A DNA stretch of 10,610 nucleotides, from positions 1-10,610 of the forward strand of contig JAGDAL010000270.1 in assembly GCA_017959525.1 (NCBI GenBank), written 5' to 3'. Made by a program: the position numbers and the translations under genes. Source of the stretch: Lachnospiraceae bacterium. GTDB taxonomy: Bacteria; Bacillota; Clostridia; Lachnospirales; Lachnospiraceae. The notes beneath the pieces are model-generated. The model was not told the origin of the DNA. It did not search any database and saw nothing but the letters and a program-made list of their open reading frames with translations. Shown piece by piece: positions 3,188 to 10,610 of the stretch; the stretch's first letter is position 1; each line of letters begins with the position of its first letter.

Positions 3188-4456
3188 TTATTTATCTGCG
3201 TTGTAGAGATCCTTGTAACCCTTGGAATTCATGGTCAGATGTCTTGGAAGACCGCCGACCATCATTGGCTGGTAATCACCCTGAATCAGTGGGCGAACAT
3301 AGTCAATGAATTCTTCGGTTACGTAGTTGCCTTCCTTGTTGATCCAATCTCTCGGAACCAATTTCTCGTCGTTAGCGATGCGGTGAACATCGTATACACC
3401 GGTGGTACTTTGGTACGGATCATCGGAGAGACGATCGATAACAACCATGACACCGGAGATGCCTTCATCTGCAGCCTTGACTGCAGCACCGCCTACCATG
3501 AATGCTTCATTGATATCGATACGGCTGGCAAGATGTGCAGCAGCACGCTGCAAGGTGGAGAACTCTACGGCTCTGGTCTTGCATCCCAATTCGTCGTGAA
3601 TATAGTTTGCAAGGAATGCAGCGGTACCGGTCATTTGGATATGACCGAATGCATCGACGGATTCACTGCCGGCGGTCAGCTGACAGATGTAAGTGCCCTT
3701 GGCATCCTTGATACCTTCGGAAACAGCGGCAACGACCACGTCTTTTTTCTTCAGTAACTTCTCTACCTGTGTCTTGAACTTCTCCAAATCGAACGGAACT
3801 TCCGGAAGGAAAATCATATCCGGTCCGTCACAATCCTCTCCCTTGGAAAGTGCGGTAGCACCGGTTAACCAGCCGGCATTACGTCCCATAACTTCGATGA
3901 CGGTGACGTTCTTTTTCTGATAAGAGAATCCCAGGCAGTCACGAATGACTTCCTTGGTGGATGTTCCGATATACTTGGCAGCAGAACCAAAACCAGGGGT
4001 ATGATCGGTGAGAGCCAGATCATTATCAATGGTCTTCGGACAGCCGATGAAGCGCTGCTTTGCGCCGGTTAAAATTGCATAATCGGAAAGTTTTTTGATG
4101 GTGTCCATGGAATCATTTCCACCAATGTAGATGAAAACATCGATGTCCATCTTGTCTAAGAGTTCGAAGATACGCTCATAGACTGCACGGTCTTCGTGGA
4201 TGGCCGGCATCTTGTAACGGCAAGTGCCAAGAAAAGCAGATGGTGTACGCTTAAGTAGCTCCAAGTCTAACTCATTCTTGATGTAATCGGAGAGATCCAC
4301 GTATTGCTCGTCCATGAATCCCTGGATTCCGTAACGCATTCCGTAAACCTTGTTGAAACCTCTGTCCATCGCAGTTTTGAATACGCCGGCAAGACTTGAG
4401 TTGATGACTGCGGTTGGGCCGCCTGACTGACCGACAAGTACATTACCTTTCTTCAT
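3188..4456 (-). CDS. pfp: 6-phosphofructokinase, pyrophosphate-type signature
   Basis: A 422-residue phosphofructokinase of the PFKA superfamily, phosphorylating fructose 6-phosphate at C1 in glycolysis. The N-terminal phosphate-binding loop GQSGGPT is at 9-15. GGNDS at 112-116 has Asp115 where ATP-dependent enzymes have Gly. PKTIDND at 140-146 has Lys141 where ATP-dependent enzymes have Gly (PGTIDND). Both changes are the recognised marks of PPi-dependent enzymes. Asp144 is the expected catalytic base and MGRNAGW at 190-196 is the sugar-phosphate-binding motif. Length is near that of bacterial PPi-PFKs. PPi-PFKs work reversibly and save ATP in fermentative anaerobes. The ribosome site is AAGGGGG (complement of 4467-4473), ten bases before the start. 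Codon use is biased in the way of strongly expressed genes. It is monocistronic, with its own promoter and terminator. Donor specificity is inferred from the two residues; a biochemical exception is possible. Confidence 0.92.
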   Translation of the reverse strand: MKKGNVLVGQSGGPTAVINSSLAGVFKTAMDRGFNKVYGMRYGIQGFMDEQYVDLSDYIKNELDLELLKRTPSAFLGTCRYKMPAIHEDRAVYERIFELLDKMDIDVFIYIGGNDSMDTIKKLSDYAILTGAKQRFIGCPKTIDNDLALTDHTPGFGSAAKYIGTSTKEVIRDCLGFSYQKKNVTVIEVMGRNAGWLTGATALSKGEDCDGPDMIFLPEVPFDLEKFKTQVEKLLKKKDVVVAAVSEGIKDAKGTYICQLTAGSESVDAFGHIQMTGTAAFLANYIHDELGCKTRAVEFSTLQRAAAHLASRIDINEAFMVGGAAVKAADEGISGVMVVIDRLSDDPYQSTTGVYDVHRIANDEKLVPRDWINKEGNYVTEEFIDYVRPLIQGDYQPMMVGGLPRHLTMNSKGYKDLYNADK

Positions 4457-4642: not shown

Positions 4643-4660
4643 CGTGAATTGTGGTTCACG
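4643..4660 (+). promoter_or_regulatory. 18-base palindrome near the transcription start, candidate TetR operator
   Basis: CGTGAA (4643-4648) and TTCACG (4655-4660) are perfect inverted arms with a six-base centre, beginning about 13 bases after the -10 element, a usual place for an autoregulatory TetR-family operator. An alternative reading is as RNA: outer AAAAACG (4631-4637) and CGTTTTT (4669-4675) could extend an interrupted hairpin ending in a T-run, like an attenuator. A single TTCACG half-site also occurs at 4495-4500 in the divergent leader. Confidence 0.45.
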
Positions 4661-4692
4661 AGAGGCGTCGTTTTTTCTTAATGGGGTGGGGA

Positions 4693-5337
4693 ATGTATAA
4701 GAAATTAGATCCGGAAGCATTACAGCGCATCATGGAAGCGGGAATTGAAGAATTTGCCGAGTACGGATTGGACCGGGCTGCCATGAATCATATTGCGAAA
4801 ACTTCCGGGGTGAGTGTGGGAGTTCTCTACAAATACTACAAGGACAAGGATGATTTTTTCTTGGCCTGCGTGCAGTATTCACTACGACTTCTGGAAGAAA
4901 CCATGGCATCTGTGGTGCGCCAGGAGGCCGATCTGATGGGATGCATTCGCAACCTGATACACACCTTAGTACAAGAAGCACATGCGCATCCGGCGTACTA
5001 TAAGCTCTACAACGAGATTACGTCGGGAAGCTGTAAAAAATATGCCGCGGAATTAGCTGCTCAGATCGAGGGCAGTACCGCAAAAATTTATTCCGAGATT
5101 ATTGAACGGGCGCAGAAGGAAGGTCGCATAGAGTTTGCCGGAGATCCGCGCATGACCGCTTTTTTCTTCGATAACTTATTGATGATGTTACAATTCTCCT
5201 TCAGTTGCGAGTACTATCGCAGGCGAATGGGAATTTTCTGTGGAGAGGAGTATATGGATCAGCCGGAAGCCATTGGCGAGGCATTGATTCAGTTTGTGGC
5301 AACGACACTAGGGGGAGGAGAGGAATGTATGCGTTAA
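4693..5337 (+). CDS. TetR/AcrR-family transcriptional regulator
   Basis: Start chosen at ATG 4693 (214 residues) because the family's N-terminal helix begins here and a G-rich site (from 4683) precedes it. In-frame ATG 4681 and GTG 4651 are alternatives; the latter overlaps the candidate operator. Residues ~8-54 are the TetR helix-turn-helix domain: a helix with EEFAEYG, then AAMNHIAKTSGVSVGVLYKYY and the KDKDDFF turn. The rest is helical and variable, as expected for the ligand-binding and dimerisation domain; the ligand is unknown. It leads the operon and overlaps the kinase gene by 13 bases, so it probably represses its own operon and is relieved by a pathway metabolite. That role is inferred from position only. 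Confidence 0.88.
   Translation: MYKKLDPEALQRIMEAGIEEFAEYGLDRAAMNHIAKTSGVSVGVLYKYYKDKDDFFLACVQYSLRLLEETMASVVRQEADLMGCIRNLIHTLVQEAHAHPAYYKLYNEITSGSCKKYAAELAAQIEGSTAKIYSEIIERAQKEGRIEFAGDPRMTAFFFDNLLMMLQFSFSCEYYRRRMGIFCGEEYMDQPEAIGEALIQFVATTLGGGEECMR
5311..5323 (+). promoter_or_regulatory. Purine-rich ribosome site that sets the kinase start
   Basis: A run of G and A (5311-5323) inside the end of the TetR gene lies directly before ATG 5325. It supports 5325 rather than any of the upstream in-frame codons as the kinase start and implies translational coupling across the overlap. Confidence 0.7.
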
Positions 5338-6917
5338 GTTACGATATCGGTACCACAGGATTGAAGTGCTGTCTGTTTGCCTTGGAGGGGGAAGTACAGA
5401 TGGTGGCGGGACATTATGCCACCTACGGTTTGCATATTTTAAGCAATGGTGGCGCAGAGCAGGAAGTAGAAGACTGGTGGCATGCCATGGAAGAGTGCAC
5501 CCATCAGTTGCTGGAGAAGACCGGCATCTCACCGGATGAGATTGCAGGCATCGCCTTCTGCTCGCAGATGCAGGGTCTTGTCTTAGTGGATAAAGAGGGC
5601 AATGCGCTCCGTCGTCCTATGAGCTACATGGACCAGCGTGCAGCGGCTGAAATGAAGGAGACGGAAGACTACGGACTATCGGTAGCAGGCGTGAATGTAC
5701 GGATGTTGGTAAAGAGTCTTCGCCGGACCCATGCCGCATCCACTAGCGTAAAAGACCCGTTATGGAAGTACAAATGGGTACAGAAGCACGAACCGGAGAT
5801 TTTCGCCAAGGTCTATAAATGGCTGGATGTCAAAGAATACTTGATTGCCCGGATGACCGGAGAATTTATTATGACACCGGACAGTGCCTATGCTACGTTC
5901 CTCTATGACAGTCGACCGGGGAAGGAAGGCTGGAGCAAGAGTCTGTGCCGGATGTACGGCGTTGAGTATGAGCACTTACCGCGGATCATCGGTTGTGACG
6001 AAGTAGTCGGTGGTCTGCTTCCACAGGTAGCAGAGCAGTTAGGATTAAAAGCAGGGACGCCGGTGTACGGAAGCGGCGGAGATGCAACGCTTATCGGCAT
6101 CGGTGCAGGAAGTACCTGTATCGGAGATACCCATGTATATTGGGGAACCTCCGGATGGATCGGAACGGTGATTGATCGGCAGAAGGTGGACTTAGGGTCC
6201 ATGATCGCCGGTATTGTTGGAGCACAGGAAGGCAAGTACAACTATTTTGCCGAGATGGAGACCGCAGGCAAGTGCTTCGAGTGGGTGAAGGATCATCTGG
6301 TATTGGATGAGATTAATATTTACCTGCAGAAAAAAGATGTGGAGCACTGTGTGGAGGCAGAATACATCAGCCTCTACGATTACATGTCCCGGGTGGTCAA
6401 TGAAGTAGCACCGGGCAGCGGAGGTGTGATTTTTACCCCATGGTTGCATGGCAACCGGTGTCCGTTCGAAGATCCGAAAGCAGCAGGAATGTTTTTTAAT
6501 ATCAAGTTGGATACCAAGAAGCGCGAACTGATTCGTGCGGTGTTGGAAGGTATCTGTTTCCACTTACGGTGGATGCTAGAGTGTGAAGATCATAAGACAC
6601 ATACGTCAAACGTCATTCGCTTCGTTGGAGGGGGATCTTTATCTGCCGTCACCAGTCAGATGTTAGCTGACATTACGGGACGGCGGGTAGAGACCATTGT
6701 CCAGGCGAAGGATGTAGGAGCTTTGGGTGCAGCGTTGTTAGTAGCCAAGGGATGTGGCGTATTGCATGACTTGGAAGAAGCGAAACAACTGGTACAGGTG
6801 GAACATGTTTTTGAACCACAGGAAGAATTTAGTTGGATATACAACAAAAACTATGAGATTTTCAAACGACTGTATCGTGCCAATCGAAAGAACTATCGAC
6901 TGCTGAATCAGGAATAG
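5325..6917 (+). CDS. FGGY-family carbohydrate kinase (xylulokinase-like)
   Basis: A 530-residue FGGY kinase, longer than typical xylulokinase (about 480-500). The first ATPase-fold phosphate motif is YDIGTTG (6-12). SQMQG at 80-84 corresponds to the xylulokinase SGQMHG segment but has Gln for the usual His. MDQR at 102-105 corresponds to the substrate-contacting W.D.R segment. GSGGDAT places the probable catalytic Asp at 253. GTSGW (274-278) is the second phosphate motif and GGGS (435-438) the adenosine motif, followed by DVGALGAAL. Family role: ATP-dependent phosphorylation of a ketose or polyol in the cytosol. Xylulose is the nearest named substrate, but the altered substrate-site residues and the neighbours make another ketose or polyol as likely. 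The gene overlaps the regulator by 13 bases and is nine bases from the aldolase, which would cleave the phosphorylated product. No transporter or isomerase is present in the operon. Confidence 0.9.
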   Translation: MYALSYDIGTTGLKCCLFALEGEVQMVAGHYATYGLHILSNGGAEQEVEDWWHAMEECTHQLLEKTGISPDEIAGIAFCSQMQGLVLVDKEGNALRRPMSYMDQRAAAEMKETEDYGLSVAGVNVRMLVKSLRRTHAASTSVKDPLWKYKWVQKHEPEIFAKVYKWLDVKEYLIARMTGEFIMTPDSAYATFLYDSRPGKEGWSKSLCRMYGVEYEHLPRIIGCDEVVGGLLPQVAEQLGLKAGTPVYGSGGDATLIGIGAGSTCIGDTHVYWGTSGWIGTVIDRQKVDLGSMIAGIVGAQEGKYNYFAEMETAGKCFEWVKDHLVLDEINIYLQKKDVEHCVEAEYISLYDYMSRVVNEVAPGSGGVIFTPWLHGNRCPFEDPKAAGMFFNIKLDTKKRELIRAVLEGICFHLRWMLECEDHKTHTSNVIRFVGGGSLSAVTSQMLADITGRRVETIVQAKDVGALGAALLVAKGCGVLHDLEEAKQLVQVEHVFEPQEEFSWIYNKNYEIFKRLYRANRKNYRLLNQE

Positions 6918-6926
6918 GGGGATGCT

Positions 6927-7934
6927 ATGGAAGAAAAAGAATTACGACAACAGATTACAGAGACCGGTCGCAGGCTACTGCAGGACGGACTGGTAGCAAG
7001 AACCTGGGGCAATGTCAGTGCCAGAGTGGATGCGGAGCATTTTCTCATTACCCCAAGTGGACTGGATTACATGCAGACGAGGGATGAGGATTTAGCACTC
7101 TATCATCCGGCGGATAAGACCTGGAGCGGACCGCATAAGCCTTCCAGTGAGAAGGGCATTCATGCTGCAGCGTATGAATTGTTTCCGGAAGTAAACTTTG
7201 TGATTCATACCCATCAGACCTATGCATCTGCCATTGGCGTGTTCGGGTTTGATCGGCTTAGCCTTACGAAGGAAGAAAAAGAAAGCCTTGGTGGAATTGC
7301 TTTGGCGGGCTATGGGCTTCCTGGCACCGGTAAGCTGAAAAAGGAAGTGACCGCTGCTTTTGCCACCGGTGCACATACGGTTTTTATGAAGCATCATGGC
7401 GTGGTGATTGCCGCAGCGTCCAGAGAGGAGGCTTATGAGAGGGCCTTACTTCTGGAGGAGGTTTGTAAGCGAAATTGTGATATTGCAGAACAGATTGTGC
7501 CGATGCCTCAGGGGGAGAAAGCTGCACTAAAAGATGAGATTTTGTTGGATATCCAACAGACATATCCGAATGCCAGATGGGTGAATACGGAAGCAGTCTT
7601 ACGTTGGGCTTTGTTACATCGTCCATTAACGGCGCAGCTGGATGACATGGCCCAGATGATCGGACGGCGGATTCCATGGGTGAAAGCAGAGAAGGAAGCG
7701 GTACGCACCGTATTTTCATCCGGAGGAAATGCTGCCTTCGTTGGAGAATTAGGAGCAGTGGTTTGCGGACGGGATGCAGACGATACGGAAGCCTTACAGA
7801 TTCTGGTAGATAAGTCTGCGGTCTGCGCCTTAAATACCATGGCAACACCGAGGAAGACTTCCCTTGGAGCATTTGACAGTGCATTGATGCATCTGGTGTA
7901 TCAGAAGAAATATTCTAAGCAGAAGAACGGTTAG
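6927..7934 (+). CDS. Class II aldolase/adducin-family protein with extra C-terminal domain
   Basis: Residues ~1-200 of 335 form a class II (zinc) aldolase domain of the fuculose/ribulose-phosphate type: GNVSAR (28-33), TPSG (42-45), PSSE with candidate catalytic Glu75, zinc ligands H94 and H96 in IHTH, and H157 in KHHG. Family role: retro-aldol cleavage (or epimerisation) of sugar phosphates, often giving dihydroxyacetone phosphate and an aldehyde. The usual enzyme is ~210-230 residues; here ~130 more follow (about 203-335). That tail has segments like the end of an aldolase fold (LGAVVCGRDADD at about 273-284) but no zinc-site histidines, so it may be a degenerate second aldolase domain or a family-specific extension. 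A strong ribosome site (AGGGGGAT, 6916-6923) overlaps the kinase stop. Pairing with the kinase indicates a kinase-aldolase route. The substrate is not determined. Confidence 0.88.
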   Translation: MEEKELRQQITETGRRLLQDGLVARTWGNVSARVDAEHFLITPSGLDYMQTRDEDLALYHPADKTWSGPHKPSSEKGIHAAAYELFPEVNFVIHTHQTYASAIGVFGFDRLSLTKEEKESLGGIALAGYGLPGTGKLKKEVTAAFATGAHTVFMKHHGVVIAAASREEAYERALLLEEVCKRNCDIAEQIVPMPQGEKAALKDEILLDIQQTYPNARWVNTEAVLRWALLHRPLTAQLDDMAQMIGRRIPWVKAEKEAVRTVFSSGGNAAFVGELGAVVCGRDADDTEALQILVDKSAVCALNTMATPRKTSLGAFDSALMHLVYQKKYSKQKNG

Positions 7935-7953
7935 TAATGGGGGAAGAAAAAAG

Positions 7954-8388
7954 ATGAAAGACAAAACAAAATGGAAGGAAACCTTACGGGTGTTAAAATT
8001 CGTCGGGTTCTCGATATCGGCAGGGGTGATTGAGATTCTCTCTTTTACCTTGCTGGATCAGTTTACCGGCTGGCGTTATTGGCCGAAGTACCTGATTGCG
8101 TTGGTATTATCGGTGCTCTGGAACTTCACGTTAAATCGGAAGTTCACCTTCCAGAGCGCCAACAACGTACCAAAGGCCATGCTGCTGGTAGCACTTTTTT
8201 ACCTGGTGTTTACACCACTCACAACGGTGCTTGGAGATTTCCTGGCAGAAGGATTGGGATGGAACGAATATCTGGTGACAGGCCTGAATATGGCCTTAAA
8301 CCTTTCCACCGAATACTTATATGACCGCTTCGTGGTCTTCCGGGGAACCATCGATACCAATGAACGTGCACAGAAACAAACATTATAA
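7954..8388 (+). CDS. GtrA-family membrane protein
   Basis: A 144-residue protein with four hydrophobic segments near 13-35, 44-60, 75-95 and 103-123. The GtrA-family hallmarks are WNFTLNRKFTF (56-66) after segment 2 and YDRFVVF (123-129) after segment 4. Known for the family: small integral membrane proteins, several linked to flipping lipid-linked sugars or to cell-surface polysaccharide synthesis. Its ribosome site is GGGGGAAG (7939-7946), and gaps to its neighbours are 19 and 23 bases, so it is within the operon. A GtrA gene between a sugar-cleaving aldolase and an aminotransferase is unexpected in a catabolic operon. It may point to a surface-glycan link or a small-molecule transport role, which is inference. 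Confidence 0.85.
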   Translation: MKDKTKWKETLRVLKFVGFSISAGVIEILSFTLLDQFTGWRYWPKYLIALVLSVLWNFTLNRKFTFQSANNVPKAMLLVALFYLVFTPLTTVLGDFLAEGLGWNEYLVTGLNMALNLSTEYLYDRFVVFRGTIDTNERAQKQTL

Positions 8389-8411
8389 AGCGGAAAACAG
8401 GAGGTTATCAA

Positions 8412-9905
8412 ATGAAGAATTGTGGAATCAGCAGATGGGATGACCCGAAGGCCATCAATGCACAATTGAAAGCGCTTACATCTCAGCCAATTTGGGAAGT
8501 GGATGATGATTACTATCAGAATACGGTATTGAAATACTACGATGATAAGTGCCAGAAATCCCATGCCGTATTTGAAGAGTCCCAGAAGTATATTCCGGGC
8601 GGTGTGCAGCACAACCTGGCTTTTAATAAGCCGTTTCCAATGTGTATGGAGAAGGCCAACGGCGCTTATCTGTACGATAAGGATGGCAACAAGTACATCG
8701 ATTTCTTGCAGGCCGGTGGTCCGACCATCTTAGGCAGCAACTACGAGCCGGTCAGACAGCGTGTGATTGAGCTATTGAATGAGTGTGGACCGGTCACCGG
8801 TTTGTTGCATGAATCTGAGATGCTCATTGCAAGAGAGATTAATAAGCACATGCCAAACGTAGAGATGTTCCGTATGCTTGGATCCGGTACCGAGTCCGTT
8901 ATGGCATCTCTTCGTATTGCTCGTATTGCCACCGGCAAGAAGCACATCATCAAGATTGGTGGCGCATATCATGGATGGTCCGATCAGATGGTATACGGTC
9001 TGAAGATTCCGGGCAGCCGTAATCTCTTAGAGTCTCACGGCATTCCTGGCAGCTGCTTTGGCAAGACCGATGAAGTTCGTCCAAACGATTTGAATATGTT
9101 AGAGAAGATGTTAAAGCGCAATCGCCTAAGCGGTGGTACTGCAGCAGTTCTCATTGAGCCGGTAGGACCGGAGAGTGGTACCAGACCGGTGGCCCATGAT
9201 TATAACAAGGGCGTTCGTGAACTTTGCGATAAGTATGGCGCACTCTTAATTTTTGATGAAGTTGTAACCGGATTCCGTGTGGCTCTTTCCGGTGCACAGG
9301 GATACTTCGATGTCGTTCCGGATCTGACCATTTTCGGTAAAATCGTTGCCGGTGGATATCCTGCAGCAGGTGGTGTCGGTGGTAAGAAGGAATATGCACA
9401 GTTGATGGCTGCAGGTCTTGCAACCGGTAAACACAGAGCGTACGTTGGTGGTACCTTATCTGCTAACCCACTGTCTTGTATCGCAGGTTATGCTGCAATT
9501 CAGGAAATCGAGCGTACCAATGCCTGTGAAGTTGCAGGTCAGATGGGTGACCGTCTCTGCGATGGCTTGAAGGAATTGATCGACCGTTACGGATTACCAT
9601 TTGTTGCATACAACCAGGGCTCCATCGTTCACTTAGAGTGTACTGGAGCAATGAGCTTCGATTTCTCCTCCATGTCCTTTATCAAGTCTGCAACCGGACT
9701 CTTGAAGCATAAGGATATGATGTATGTCCGTAAGGATTCCATGGAGCGCATGGGTGCTGCTTACATGGCCAACGGTATTGTTACTTTGGCAGGCAGCCGC
9801 CTCTACACATCCCTAGCAGACACACCGGAAATCATCGACGAGGCATTGAACCGCTTCGAAGAAGTATTTAAGCATGTGAAAAAGACCGATAAGGGTCTGT
9901 TATAG
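8412..9905 (+). CDS. Class III PLP aminotransferase, glutamate-1-semialdehyde aminomutase-like
   Basis: A 497-residue fold-type I PLP enzyme. IPGGV...GAYLYDKDGNKYID at about 60-96 is the typical glutamate-1-semialdehyde aminomutase N-terminal pattern. GSGTES (157-162) binds the PLP phosphate, Y186-H187 stack over the ring, D282 in FDEVVTGFR contacts the pyridine nitrogen, and K310 in FGKIVAGG is the Schiff-base lysine. It is longer than standard HemL (~430), mainly by an N-terminal extension of about 50 residues. No other haem gene is near, so a HemL role is unlikely; amination or amino-transposition of an aldehyde or ketone from the kinase-aldolase route is a reasonable guess. It has a consensus AGGAGG site (8399-8404) seven bases before the ATG. 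Arginine is coded by CGT, CGC and AGA with no CGG seen, whereas CGG is the commonest arginine codon in the kinase, suggesting stronger expression or a different history from the neighbours. Confidence 0.88.
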   Translation: MKNCGISRWDDPKAINAQLKALTSQPIWEVDDDYYQNTVLKYYDDKCQKSHAVFEESQKYIPGGVQHNLAFNKPFPMCMEKANGAYLYDKDGNKYIDFLQAGGPTILGSNYEPVRQRVIELLNECGPVTGLLHESEMLIAREINKHMPNVEMFRMLGSGTESVMASLRIARIATGKKHIIKIGGAYHGWSDQMVYGLKIPGSRNLLESHGIPGSCFGKTDEVRPNDLNMLEKMLKRNRLSGGTAAVLIEPVGPESGTRPVAHDYNKGVRELCDKYGALLIFDEVVTGFRVALSGAQGYFDVVPDLTIFGKIVAGGYPAAGGVGGKKEYAQLMAAGLATGKHRAYVGGTLSANPLSCIAGYAAIQEIERTNACEVAGQMGDRLCDGLKELIDRYGLPFVAYNQGSIVHLECTGAMSFDFSSMSFIKSATGLLKHKDMMYVRKDSMERMGAAYMANGIVTLAGSRLYTSLADTPEIIDEALNRFEEVFKHVKKTDKGLL

Positions 9906-9924: not shown

Positions 9925-9962
9925 GGATGTCCTCCCACTCGCAGGGAGGGCATCCTTTTTTT
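9925..9962 (+). terminator. Strong intrinsic terminator of the operon
   Basis: GGATGTCCTCCC (9925-9936) pairs with GGGAGGGCATCC (9944-9955) in a 12-pair stem with one G-U pair and a seven-base loop, followed by seven T (9956-9962). It begins 20 bases after the aminotransferase stop. Confidence 0.92.
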
Positions 9963-9966
9963 ATTC

Positions 9967-10090
9967 CTTAAGCCCCGTCTTATTGATTGTATCTAAGGCC
10001 TGCGGAGCATCAAGGGCATAGCCGCATTGCGGTGCTTCGCACCCTTGACCCTCCGCAAGCCTTAGCTTGTTTGTTGGCACGGGGCTTAAG
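9967..10090. repeat. 124-base nested inverted repeat
   Basis: Three concentric stems are visible. The outer is CTTAAGCCCCGT (9967-9978) with ACGGGGCTTAAG (10079-10090), 12 perfect pairs. The middle is 9993-10007 with 10051-10065, 14 of 15 pairs (one C/A mismatch at 10000/10058). The inner is TCAAGGG (10010-10016) with CCCTTGA (10042-10048). The centre can form either CCGC-ATT-GCGG (10022-10032) or GGTGC-TTC-GCACC (10031-10043), which exclude each other. It lies four bases after the operon terminator T-run. It could be a dispersed extragenic palindrome, a small non-autonomous mobile element, or a structured RNA. There are no transposase genes and no clear target-site duplication. Confidence 0.8.
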
Positions 10091-10117
10091 AGATAATGCT
10101 GCGAAGTTGGAGAATTC

Positions 10118-10299
10118 TTAGTGAAGTGCTTTTGTTTGGGGAGATTCACTAACTTTTTTGGGACTCCGCTGGCTGCGCGGGAGCGTAGAATTAGTGAAAC
10201 AATCCGATATCGGAAGATTGACTACATATTTTGGGTGGCGGCATCTCATGGGGGACTGGAAAGATTAGTGATGTAGCTAATTTCAAGGTATTTCACTAT
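10118..10299. repeat. Hairpin array block 1: three units, arms TTAGTGAA / TTCACTAA
   Basis: Unit A has TTAGTGAA at 10118-10125 and TTCACTAA at 10145-10152, eight perfect pairs. Unit B has TTAGTGAA at 10191-10198 and TTGACTAC at 10218-10225, six of eight. Unit C has TTAGTGAT at 10265-10272 and TTCACTAT at 10292-10299, with a six-pair core TAGTGA/TCACTA. In every unit the arms start 27 bases apart with 19 bases between them. Units start 73 and then 74 bases apart. The sequence between arms differs between units; unit B contains a 12-base palindrome (TCCGATATCGGA, 10203-10214) near its axis. The unit spacers share a TTTTGGG stretch after the right arm and a G-rich part before the next left arm. 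Confidence 0.85.
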
Positions 10300-10313
10300 A
10301 AATTGATGCTTTT

Positions 10314-10571
10314 CAGTATCTGAGCGCTCCTAAGAGGCAAATACTGAAGGTTGAGGTATTGGGGAGGACAAGGTGAGCGCCTAAATCAGTATGCTAGTTG
10401 CAAGAGTGAGCAAATACTGAAGAATGATGCGTTCGATGGTAAGGGATGAGTGTGAAAATCAGTATTTGAATGCTCCCAGAGGGAGAATACTGAAATGAGC
10501 GACTGCAGGACTCCACGCTTGTGAGTGAAAATCAGTATTCTAGGCGCTAGGGAGAGCAAATACTGATTTTC
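10314..10571. repeat. Hairpin array block 2: four units, arms TCAGTAT / ATACTGA, exact 73-base period
   Basis: CAGTAT starts at 10314, 10387, 10460 and 10533; ATACTG starts at 10341, 10414, 10487 and 10560. Both series step by exactly 73 and the arms are always 27 apart. A flanking T and A extend all four to the seven-pair TCAGTAT/ATACTGA. In unit 4 the arms extend to 13 pairs (10527-10539 with 10559-10571). The 21 bases inside each hairpin and the 40 bases between hairpins are mostly different from unit to unit. Weakly kept features are an A at inner column 4, a GCAA-like end before the right arm in three units, and AAAT before the next left arm. Unit 3 carries an inner CTCCC-AGA-GGGAG hairpin. 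Because 73 is not a multiple of three, the repeat is not protein coding. The right end lies close to the window edge. Confidence 0.92.
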
Positions 10572-10610
10572 GATATTTGAAATTGGGTGAGGCGTCTCTG
10601 GGATGGAAGC

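Follow-up and report, generated by a model that had tools for sequence, protein, structure and literature searches.

Layout of the element in the window

The window, by which we mean the whole stretch of 10,610 nucleotides analyzed here, harbors at positions 4651–9905 a series of genes in one orientation that encode a TetR-like regulator, an FGGY (xylulokinase-like) kinase, a class II aldolase-like protein, a 144-residue protein that falls in no NCBIfam family, and a hemL-like aminotransferase; together they possibly form a sugar operon. Found 3′ of the gene for the 497-residue aminotransferase (8412–9905; the matches shown all score below the curated cut-offs) is a repeat element arranged in the order P module, three class B units, and four class A units, none of which is assigned to a strand. 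P is a long palindromic border module of ~135 bases (9961–10096), an inverted repeat with the core TCAAGGG...CCCTTGA at positions 10010–10048. Class B units follow the pattern TTAGTGAA-N19-TTCACTAA and are found at 10118–10152 (no arm mismatches), 10191–10225 (two arm mismatches, 73 bases on from the first), and 10265–10299 (two arm mismatches, a further 74 bases on).

The four class A units, TCAGTAT-N21-ATACTGA, each span 35 bases (7 + 21 + 7) and were placed by a pattern search of the host genome at 10313–10347, 10386–10420, 10459–10493, and 10532–10566, the last arm ending at position 10566. They are separated by three spacers of 38 bases (10348–10385, 10421–10458, and 10494–10531), the second of which is near-identical to one spacer of the orthologous array in the congener Lachnospiraceae bacterium XBD2001. 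The contig ends 44 bases beyond the fourth unit, at 10610, and this point falls within the element as judged against the XBD2001 orthologue, which carries a second P at its far end. A first-pass annotation of the same DNA had described a four-unit array with perfect TCAGTAT and ATACTGA arms at exact 73-base steps, and that observation is real. Its 73-base step holds, but the array starts at 10313 rather than 10314, arm starts lie 28 rather than 27 bases apart, and the outer spacer comprises 38 rather than 40 bases; the array so described was moreover a partial object, since the upstream class B units (73/74-base steps) and P had been missed. The 35-base units share little beyond their arms, and thus lack the CRISPR-type organization of near-identical repeats with unique spacers. 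The first-pass annotation had also set the array apart from type III antitoxin repeats and iterons, and none of the present observations conflicts with this.

Distribution, arm classes, and genomic context

The search for the arm pattern in the host genome and its relatives, which the first-pass annotation had proposed, returned matches in three genomes of the genus: that of the window (G000; 1.7 Mb, 71% complete), XBD2001 (G002), and G001. G000 contains 10 exact class A units on four contigs and none of the reversed control pattern, XBD2001 contains 46, and G001 contains six, with no class A match in G003, the fourth genome of the genus. Eight of the 31 genomes searched have matches, the five from other genera with one or two isolated matches each. 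Within this group of rumen bacteria, compound elements recur in XBD2001 and are sparser in G001 and G003. A scan of GTDB r220, from which records of the window's own genome may be excluded, found two class A units in series only in the XBD2001 record set (11 stretches). Tandem class B is present in two of 150 genomes of the family, G000 and G002, the sole members of the genus in that sample; tandem class C is likewise found in two of the 150, G002 and, with one match, a genome of another genus (G043).

We also ran a blind detector of at least three inverted-repeat units in series, which presupposes no particular arm word. This detector found no arrays in 400 kb from four other genera or in 800 kb of shuffled DNA, and three in 400 kb of one XBD2001 contig (C10), from which most, but not all, of the loci fetched earlier had been excluded. 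Two of these arrays are class C and one is of a new E type; one of the class C arrays (L141:3694) was already known as L105, and the other two are new. On 11 known XBD2001 loci it recovered 17 of ~23 runs of at least three units and therefore misses some. The window has no match at the Rfam gathering score, and the hits of the XBD2001 orthologue all lie far below it. A blastn comparison of the window element with phage and plasmid records gave no match, and viral contigs contain no class A tandem and one class B match, located within an ORF and regarded as a chance hit; these searches lend no support to a viral or plasmid origin. A limited collection of open-access literature yielded no description of arrays from this lineage.

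The DNA fetched from these genomes contains at least six arm words: A (TCAGTAT), B (TTAGTGAA), C (GCAKAGGGAW), D (GGTGCYAAG), E ((T)GGACGC), and F (TTGTGACCTT). Units range from 35 to 43 bases across classes, with one to three runs per element. G000 has classes A and B; G002 has A, B, and C plus one E-type array; G001 has A, D, E, and F; and G003 has D at four sites, the one in C39 being a probable chance match within what seems to be coding DNA. The arm words are not strictly species-bound, and the sets differ between species. D-like words are present in G002 as well, though the exact class D pattern gave no hits there: at L138 (G002:C10, 6950–7400), D-like arms (GGGTGCTAAAA and its inverse) lie just upstream of the E-type array. 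Class D and E matches on P copies (seven in G002 and one, class D, at L038 in G001) are chance matches, which are included in the raw unit tallies and the list of mixed junctions but absent from the 149 same-class steps and 17 mixed junctions analyzed below.

Of 29 P cores in the genus, 27 adjoin units (19/19 in G002, 3/3 in G000, 5/6 in G001, and 0/1 in G003), and P lies near 13 of the 22 tabulated G002 arrays, a set partly chosen via P. In six of the 22 it is found on both sides, and the same module then forms both borders. Where an element has two P copies, these are more alike than copies from different elements (0.75 versus 0.64; p = 0.00015, six pairs).

The arrays occupy intergenic positions. 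Among 39, 24 lie between codirectional genes, 5 between convergent and 4 between divergent genes, with 6 undetermined; genes were called by codon score, and some calls are doubtful, e.g., that at L036, which is convergent in an ORF list. By these calls every orientation of the neighboring genes is represented, with no clear preference; this speaks against arrays acting purely as promoters or terminators, a reading that we rejected. All four array-bearing contigs of G000 have a counterpart in G002, and at one orthologous locus four class A units in G000 correspond to two in G002. In an eight-unit array, similarity is visible by eye between units two and four positions apart. Class A spacers share a weak consensus (11.3 bits versus 3.7 in shuffled sequence) like that of the 74-step class B spacers, a resemblance that suggests common descent.

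At L031 (G002:C10, 9282–11734), a RelB/RelE toxin–antitoxin pair (10576–11147) lies between two related A–B arrays in direct orientation that are ~91% identical over 247 bases; in an empty-site comparison the neighboring protein was present in G002 only. At L122 (G001:C175), a four-unit class D array (1575–1867) has a 98% identical inverted copy (3568–3860). The 313 bases of homology run from the outer arm to ~19 bases beyond the last arm, as if the array had moved as a unit, and the inverted copies flank a stretch of ~1.7 kb. At L100 (G001:C116, 1902–2010), the hemL-like gene and an aldehyde-dehydrogenase-like gene (by eye) are followed by two class A units, which adjoin a gene whose counterpart likewise lies near the G002 array. 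This interval carries units in both G001 and G002 though gene content differs; there is no clean empty site at the hemL-like locus, because in G001 another gene directly follows.

Spacing, arm conservation, and covariation

Of 149 same-class center-to-center steps shorter than 160 bases, 129 measure 72 to 76 bases. The usual step is 73 in classes A and C and 75 in D and E, which at a single helical repeat puts these classes ~2 bases out of strict phase with each other. The 20 nonstandard steps comprise 52.5, 63, 63, 63.5, and 84.5 in class B, 103 in C, 84 in A, 106 (six times) and 107 in D, 86 and 87 in E, and four doubles of 146 to 148, in which a unit is missing or degenerate between neighbors. 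With doubles excluded and each apparent event counted once, seven departures remain, at −0.99, 1.04, −2.01, 2.86, 0.95, 2.95, and 1.07 turns of 10.5 bp from the usual step. Most of these lie near whole turns (V = 0.915 at 10.5 bp, Monte Carlo p ≈ 1e-5; p = 6e-4 for a conservative set of five), with the caveat that events were grouped by judgement, several arrays are homologous, and the independent nonstandard steps are few (five to eight).

Junctions between different classes are weakly phased (n = 17, R = 0.51, p = 0.01; n = 15 under 90 bases, R = 0.61, p = 0.002), with 11 bp fitting slightly better than 10.5; a smaller preliminary set of 11 gave p = 0.0006. One A–C junction of 137 bases has a shortened unit in between. 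The layout 75-106-75 is repeated to within ~1 base with class D arms in G001 and G003 and with E-type arms in G002. Across the class sets of G000, G001, G002, and G003, several arm words thus share a common spacing of about seven turns, and the step and phase counts support the earlier proposal that spacing is under selection near seven helical turns, which would set the arms on one face.

The arms themselves are conserved. At three orthologous loci they differ at 7 of 228 positions (3.1%), inner segments at 45 of 269 (16.7%), and spacers at 53 of 426 (12.4%), such that arms change 4 to 5 times less than inner segments or spacers; flanks including P differ at 95 of 1194 (four loci, the fourth, C136, contributing flank only). 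Arm divergence is lower than that of inner segments (p = 2.6e-7), spacers (p = 2.9e-5), and flanks (p = 0.007), and these site counts place inner and spacer divergence above that of the flanks. Because units in this comparison were delimited in G000, some arm changes in that genome go unseen, but a doubled arm rate would remain below the inner and spacer rates. These rates bear out the claim that arm sequence is under selection.

Selection on arm pairing, which had been put forward alongside, is not supported. Among 73 distinct class A units, detected like all units by arm matches under a mismatch limit, each of arm positions 1 to 6 is unchanged in 142 or more of the 146 arms, and changes are one-sided except at position 7, where three double changes (0.96 expected) include one that is compensated. 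Class C position 4 (T/G) varies in 16 left and 6 right arms, with two double changes versus 2.4 expected, and position 10 shows two versus 4.25; position 6 of class D varies in 9 left and 12 right arms, with five versus 3.6. Overall, the 40 class C units contain 4 doubly changed arm cells versus 6.7 in shuffles, the 30 class D units contain 5 versus 4.0, and variation in class A and B arms is mostly uncompensated. Inner-stem covariation in A, B, and C is not clearly above composition (best z of 2.5, in A, over many registers).

The adjoining P, in contrast, shows strong compensatory change. In an alignment of 27 of the 28 copies (L110, cut by a contig end, was omitted), both members are altered in 23 of 38 pairs, and there are 119 doubly changed cells versus 33.6 in shuffles, with none of 500 shuffles reaching the observed value, although mutation bias, like selection, can restore the symmetry of palindromes such as P. 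Since arm changes go uncompensated while P covaries, the term hairpin is not earned for the array units, and the arms look more like inverted half-sites in double-stranded DNA, placed on one helix face, than like base-paired hairpins.

Proposed function and relation to known repeats

On balance, we favor the view that in the array we see part of a compound noncoding intergenic element of the XBD2001 lineage, whose arms would be inverted half-sites for a putative DNA-binding protein, stacked on one face of the helix. Such an element would comprise one to three runs of inverted-repeat units, often bordered on one or both sides by a structured P. Each unit would bind a dimer of a putative sequence-specific protein on double-stranded DNA, each arm class having its own protein or paralogue, and the whole-turn spacing would bring all bound dimers onto one face, where they could touch and build a cooperative higher-order complex. 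The filling and spacers would mainly set distance and phase, and P probably works at the border as a folded single strand, either as RNA or as extruded DNA. Candidate roles for the complex are local silencing or topology, regulation of a neighboring gene, or propagation of the element. Cooperative binding of dimers to inverted half-sites on one helix face would be the most economical account of class-specific conserved arm words, steps of about seven turns with exceptional steps near whole turns, uncompensated arms, and unit numbers that vary between orthologues; cooperativity and an effect on neighboring genes are what we infer beyond these features.

Several other explanations bear on the same features. 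The arrays could be REPIN/BIME-like miniature mobile DNA, in which a Y1 (RAYT) transposase recognizes inverted-repeat units in folded single-stranded form and multiplies them into tandem arrays. Class-specific, intergenic, lineage-specific tandem units would suit such an origin, as would the 98% identical inverted class D copy with homology that stops near the array ends, and G002 and G003 each harbor one Y1_Tnp gene, the former nearest to the REP-associated tyrosine transposase family NF047646 (73.1 bits, below the cut-off of 80). RAYTs adjoin their REPs in the systems described in the cited text (PMC3116915), but the 3.3 kb around each Y1 gene in G002 and G003 contains no class A–D arm pair and only four stray half-words, so that a Y1 gene flanked by its repeat is not found there for these classes; no Y1 gene was found in the array-bearing G000 or G001, both incomplete assemblies, and class C and D arms do not show the covariation of a conserved hairpin. 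We therefore regard this origin as unlikely. The G002 gene (L128, G002:C7, 1099–1941) is a single REP-associated-tyrosine-transposase-like gene with no A–D arm pairs nearby. Also improbable, in our assessment, is that the arms are half-sites of a site-specific recombinase or integrase like those of Neisseria dRS3, with arrays as hot spots of integration or rearrangement. Conserved arms around a variable center in intergenic mosaics match dRS3 as the cited excerpts describe it (PMC3898611), and both the RelBE pair between related A–B arrays and the inverted copies around ~1.7 kb in G001 could reflect such events, but recombination sites require no seven-turn step, the window element matched no phage or plasmid record, and viral contigs contained only the one class B hit inside an ORF.

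Unit duplication and gene conversion could by themselves have kept old tandem repeats alike in their arms, the 73-base step simply being inherited. Duplication is visible in the eight-unit array, in the four versus two class A units at one orthologous locus, and in the weak consensus common to A and 74-step B spacers, yet this process alone is quite unlikely to explain arms that change several-fold less than the segments around them, several arm words with one spacing, or nonstandard steps near whole turns. That the arrays encode a transcribed RNA of serial hairpins is very improbable: each unit can fold as a hairpin and P covaries as a folded strand, but class C and D arms show no covariation, inner segments show none beyond composition, the window has no Rfam match at gathering score, and whole-turn steps have no evident meaning in RNA. 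We rejected the RNA-hairpin reading on the first three of these points.

Among known repeats, the units most resemble NIME and the border-plus-tandem layout most resembles BOX, but neither these nor REPIN appears to fit, because the dRS3 word and length are not found, no RAYT neighborhood was found for classes A–D in G002 or G003, and folding hairpins are not what the variation in the middle units suggests. NIMEs are intergenic arrays of 200 to 2700 bp with dRS3 units of 20 bp (ATTCCC-N8-GGGAAT) and RS spacers of 30 to 160 bp (PMC3898611); as far as the cited excerpts go, conserved terminal inverted arms, a variable center, an intergenic setting, and variable sequence between units are common to both, but units of 35 to 43 bp, at least six arm words, a step of about seven turns, and the P border are not. 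BOX elements have different border modules, boxA and boxC, around tandem boxB, all three predicted to fold as RNA (PMC3049150). Relative to that excerpted description, the likeness is one of layout, in that composite interspersed repeats of one lineage enclose tandem middle modules, variable in number, between border modules; here, however, covariation is seen in P and not in the middle units, and an element can combine several unit classes. REPINs are inverted doublets with several classes per genome, found in ordered tandem arrays at fixed distances, 72 and 112 bp in SBW25 (PMC3116915). The present arrays share these traits, as described there, and differ in having arms that do not covary, single units of 35 to 43 bp, and no REP/RAYT neighborhood for classes A–D in G002 or G003. 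We judge the arrays to be a variant of intergenic mosaic elements with an unusual spacing rule.

The usual explanations for interspersed palindromes in bacteria are hairpin formation and mobility. Within this one element, P covaries while the other units do not but keep helical phase, which separates folded-strand from double-strand function by sequence alone. Plasmid sopC is a phased operator/centromere array of tandem inverted-repeat protein sites; the units described here would likewise be tandem inverted-repeat protein sites, putatively, but unlike sopC they are dispersed over many intergenic loci and use several site words. The cooperative half-site reading predicts an arm-binding protein whose cooperativity is abolished by an insertion of half a helical turn, and should several proteins that read different words follow one geometry, they would define a new kind of site family in bacterial chromosomes. 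A bolder extension, which has a fairly low probability of being right, is that the arrays are dispersed platforms for a dedicated, fast-evolving chromosomal DNA-binding family, with a paralogue per arm word, a common seven-turn geometry, and a common nucleoprotein structure bordered by the folding P; this would amount to a chromatin-like or boundary system in bacteria, with a fixed geometry but with specificities replaced from species to species. Folding of the class A and B inner segments may have some role, as these fold slightly better than shuffled sequence (mean z ≈ −0.7), and comparison by eye of a unit in the window with its counterpart in XBD2001 shows a real but isolated compensated change (CTCCC/GGGAG versus CTCCT/AGGAG).
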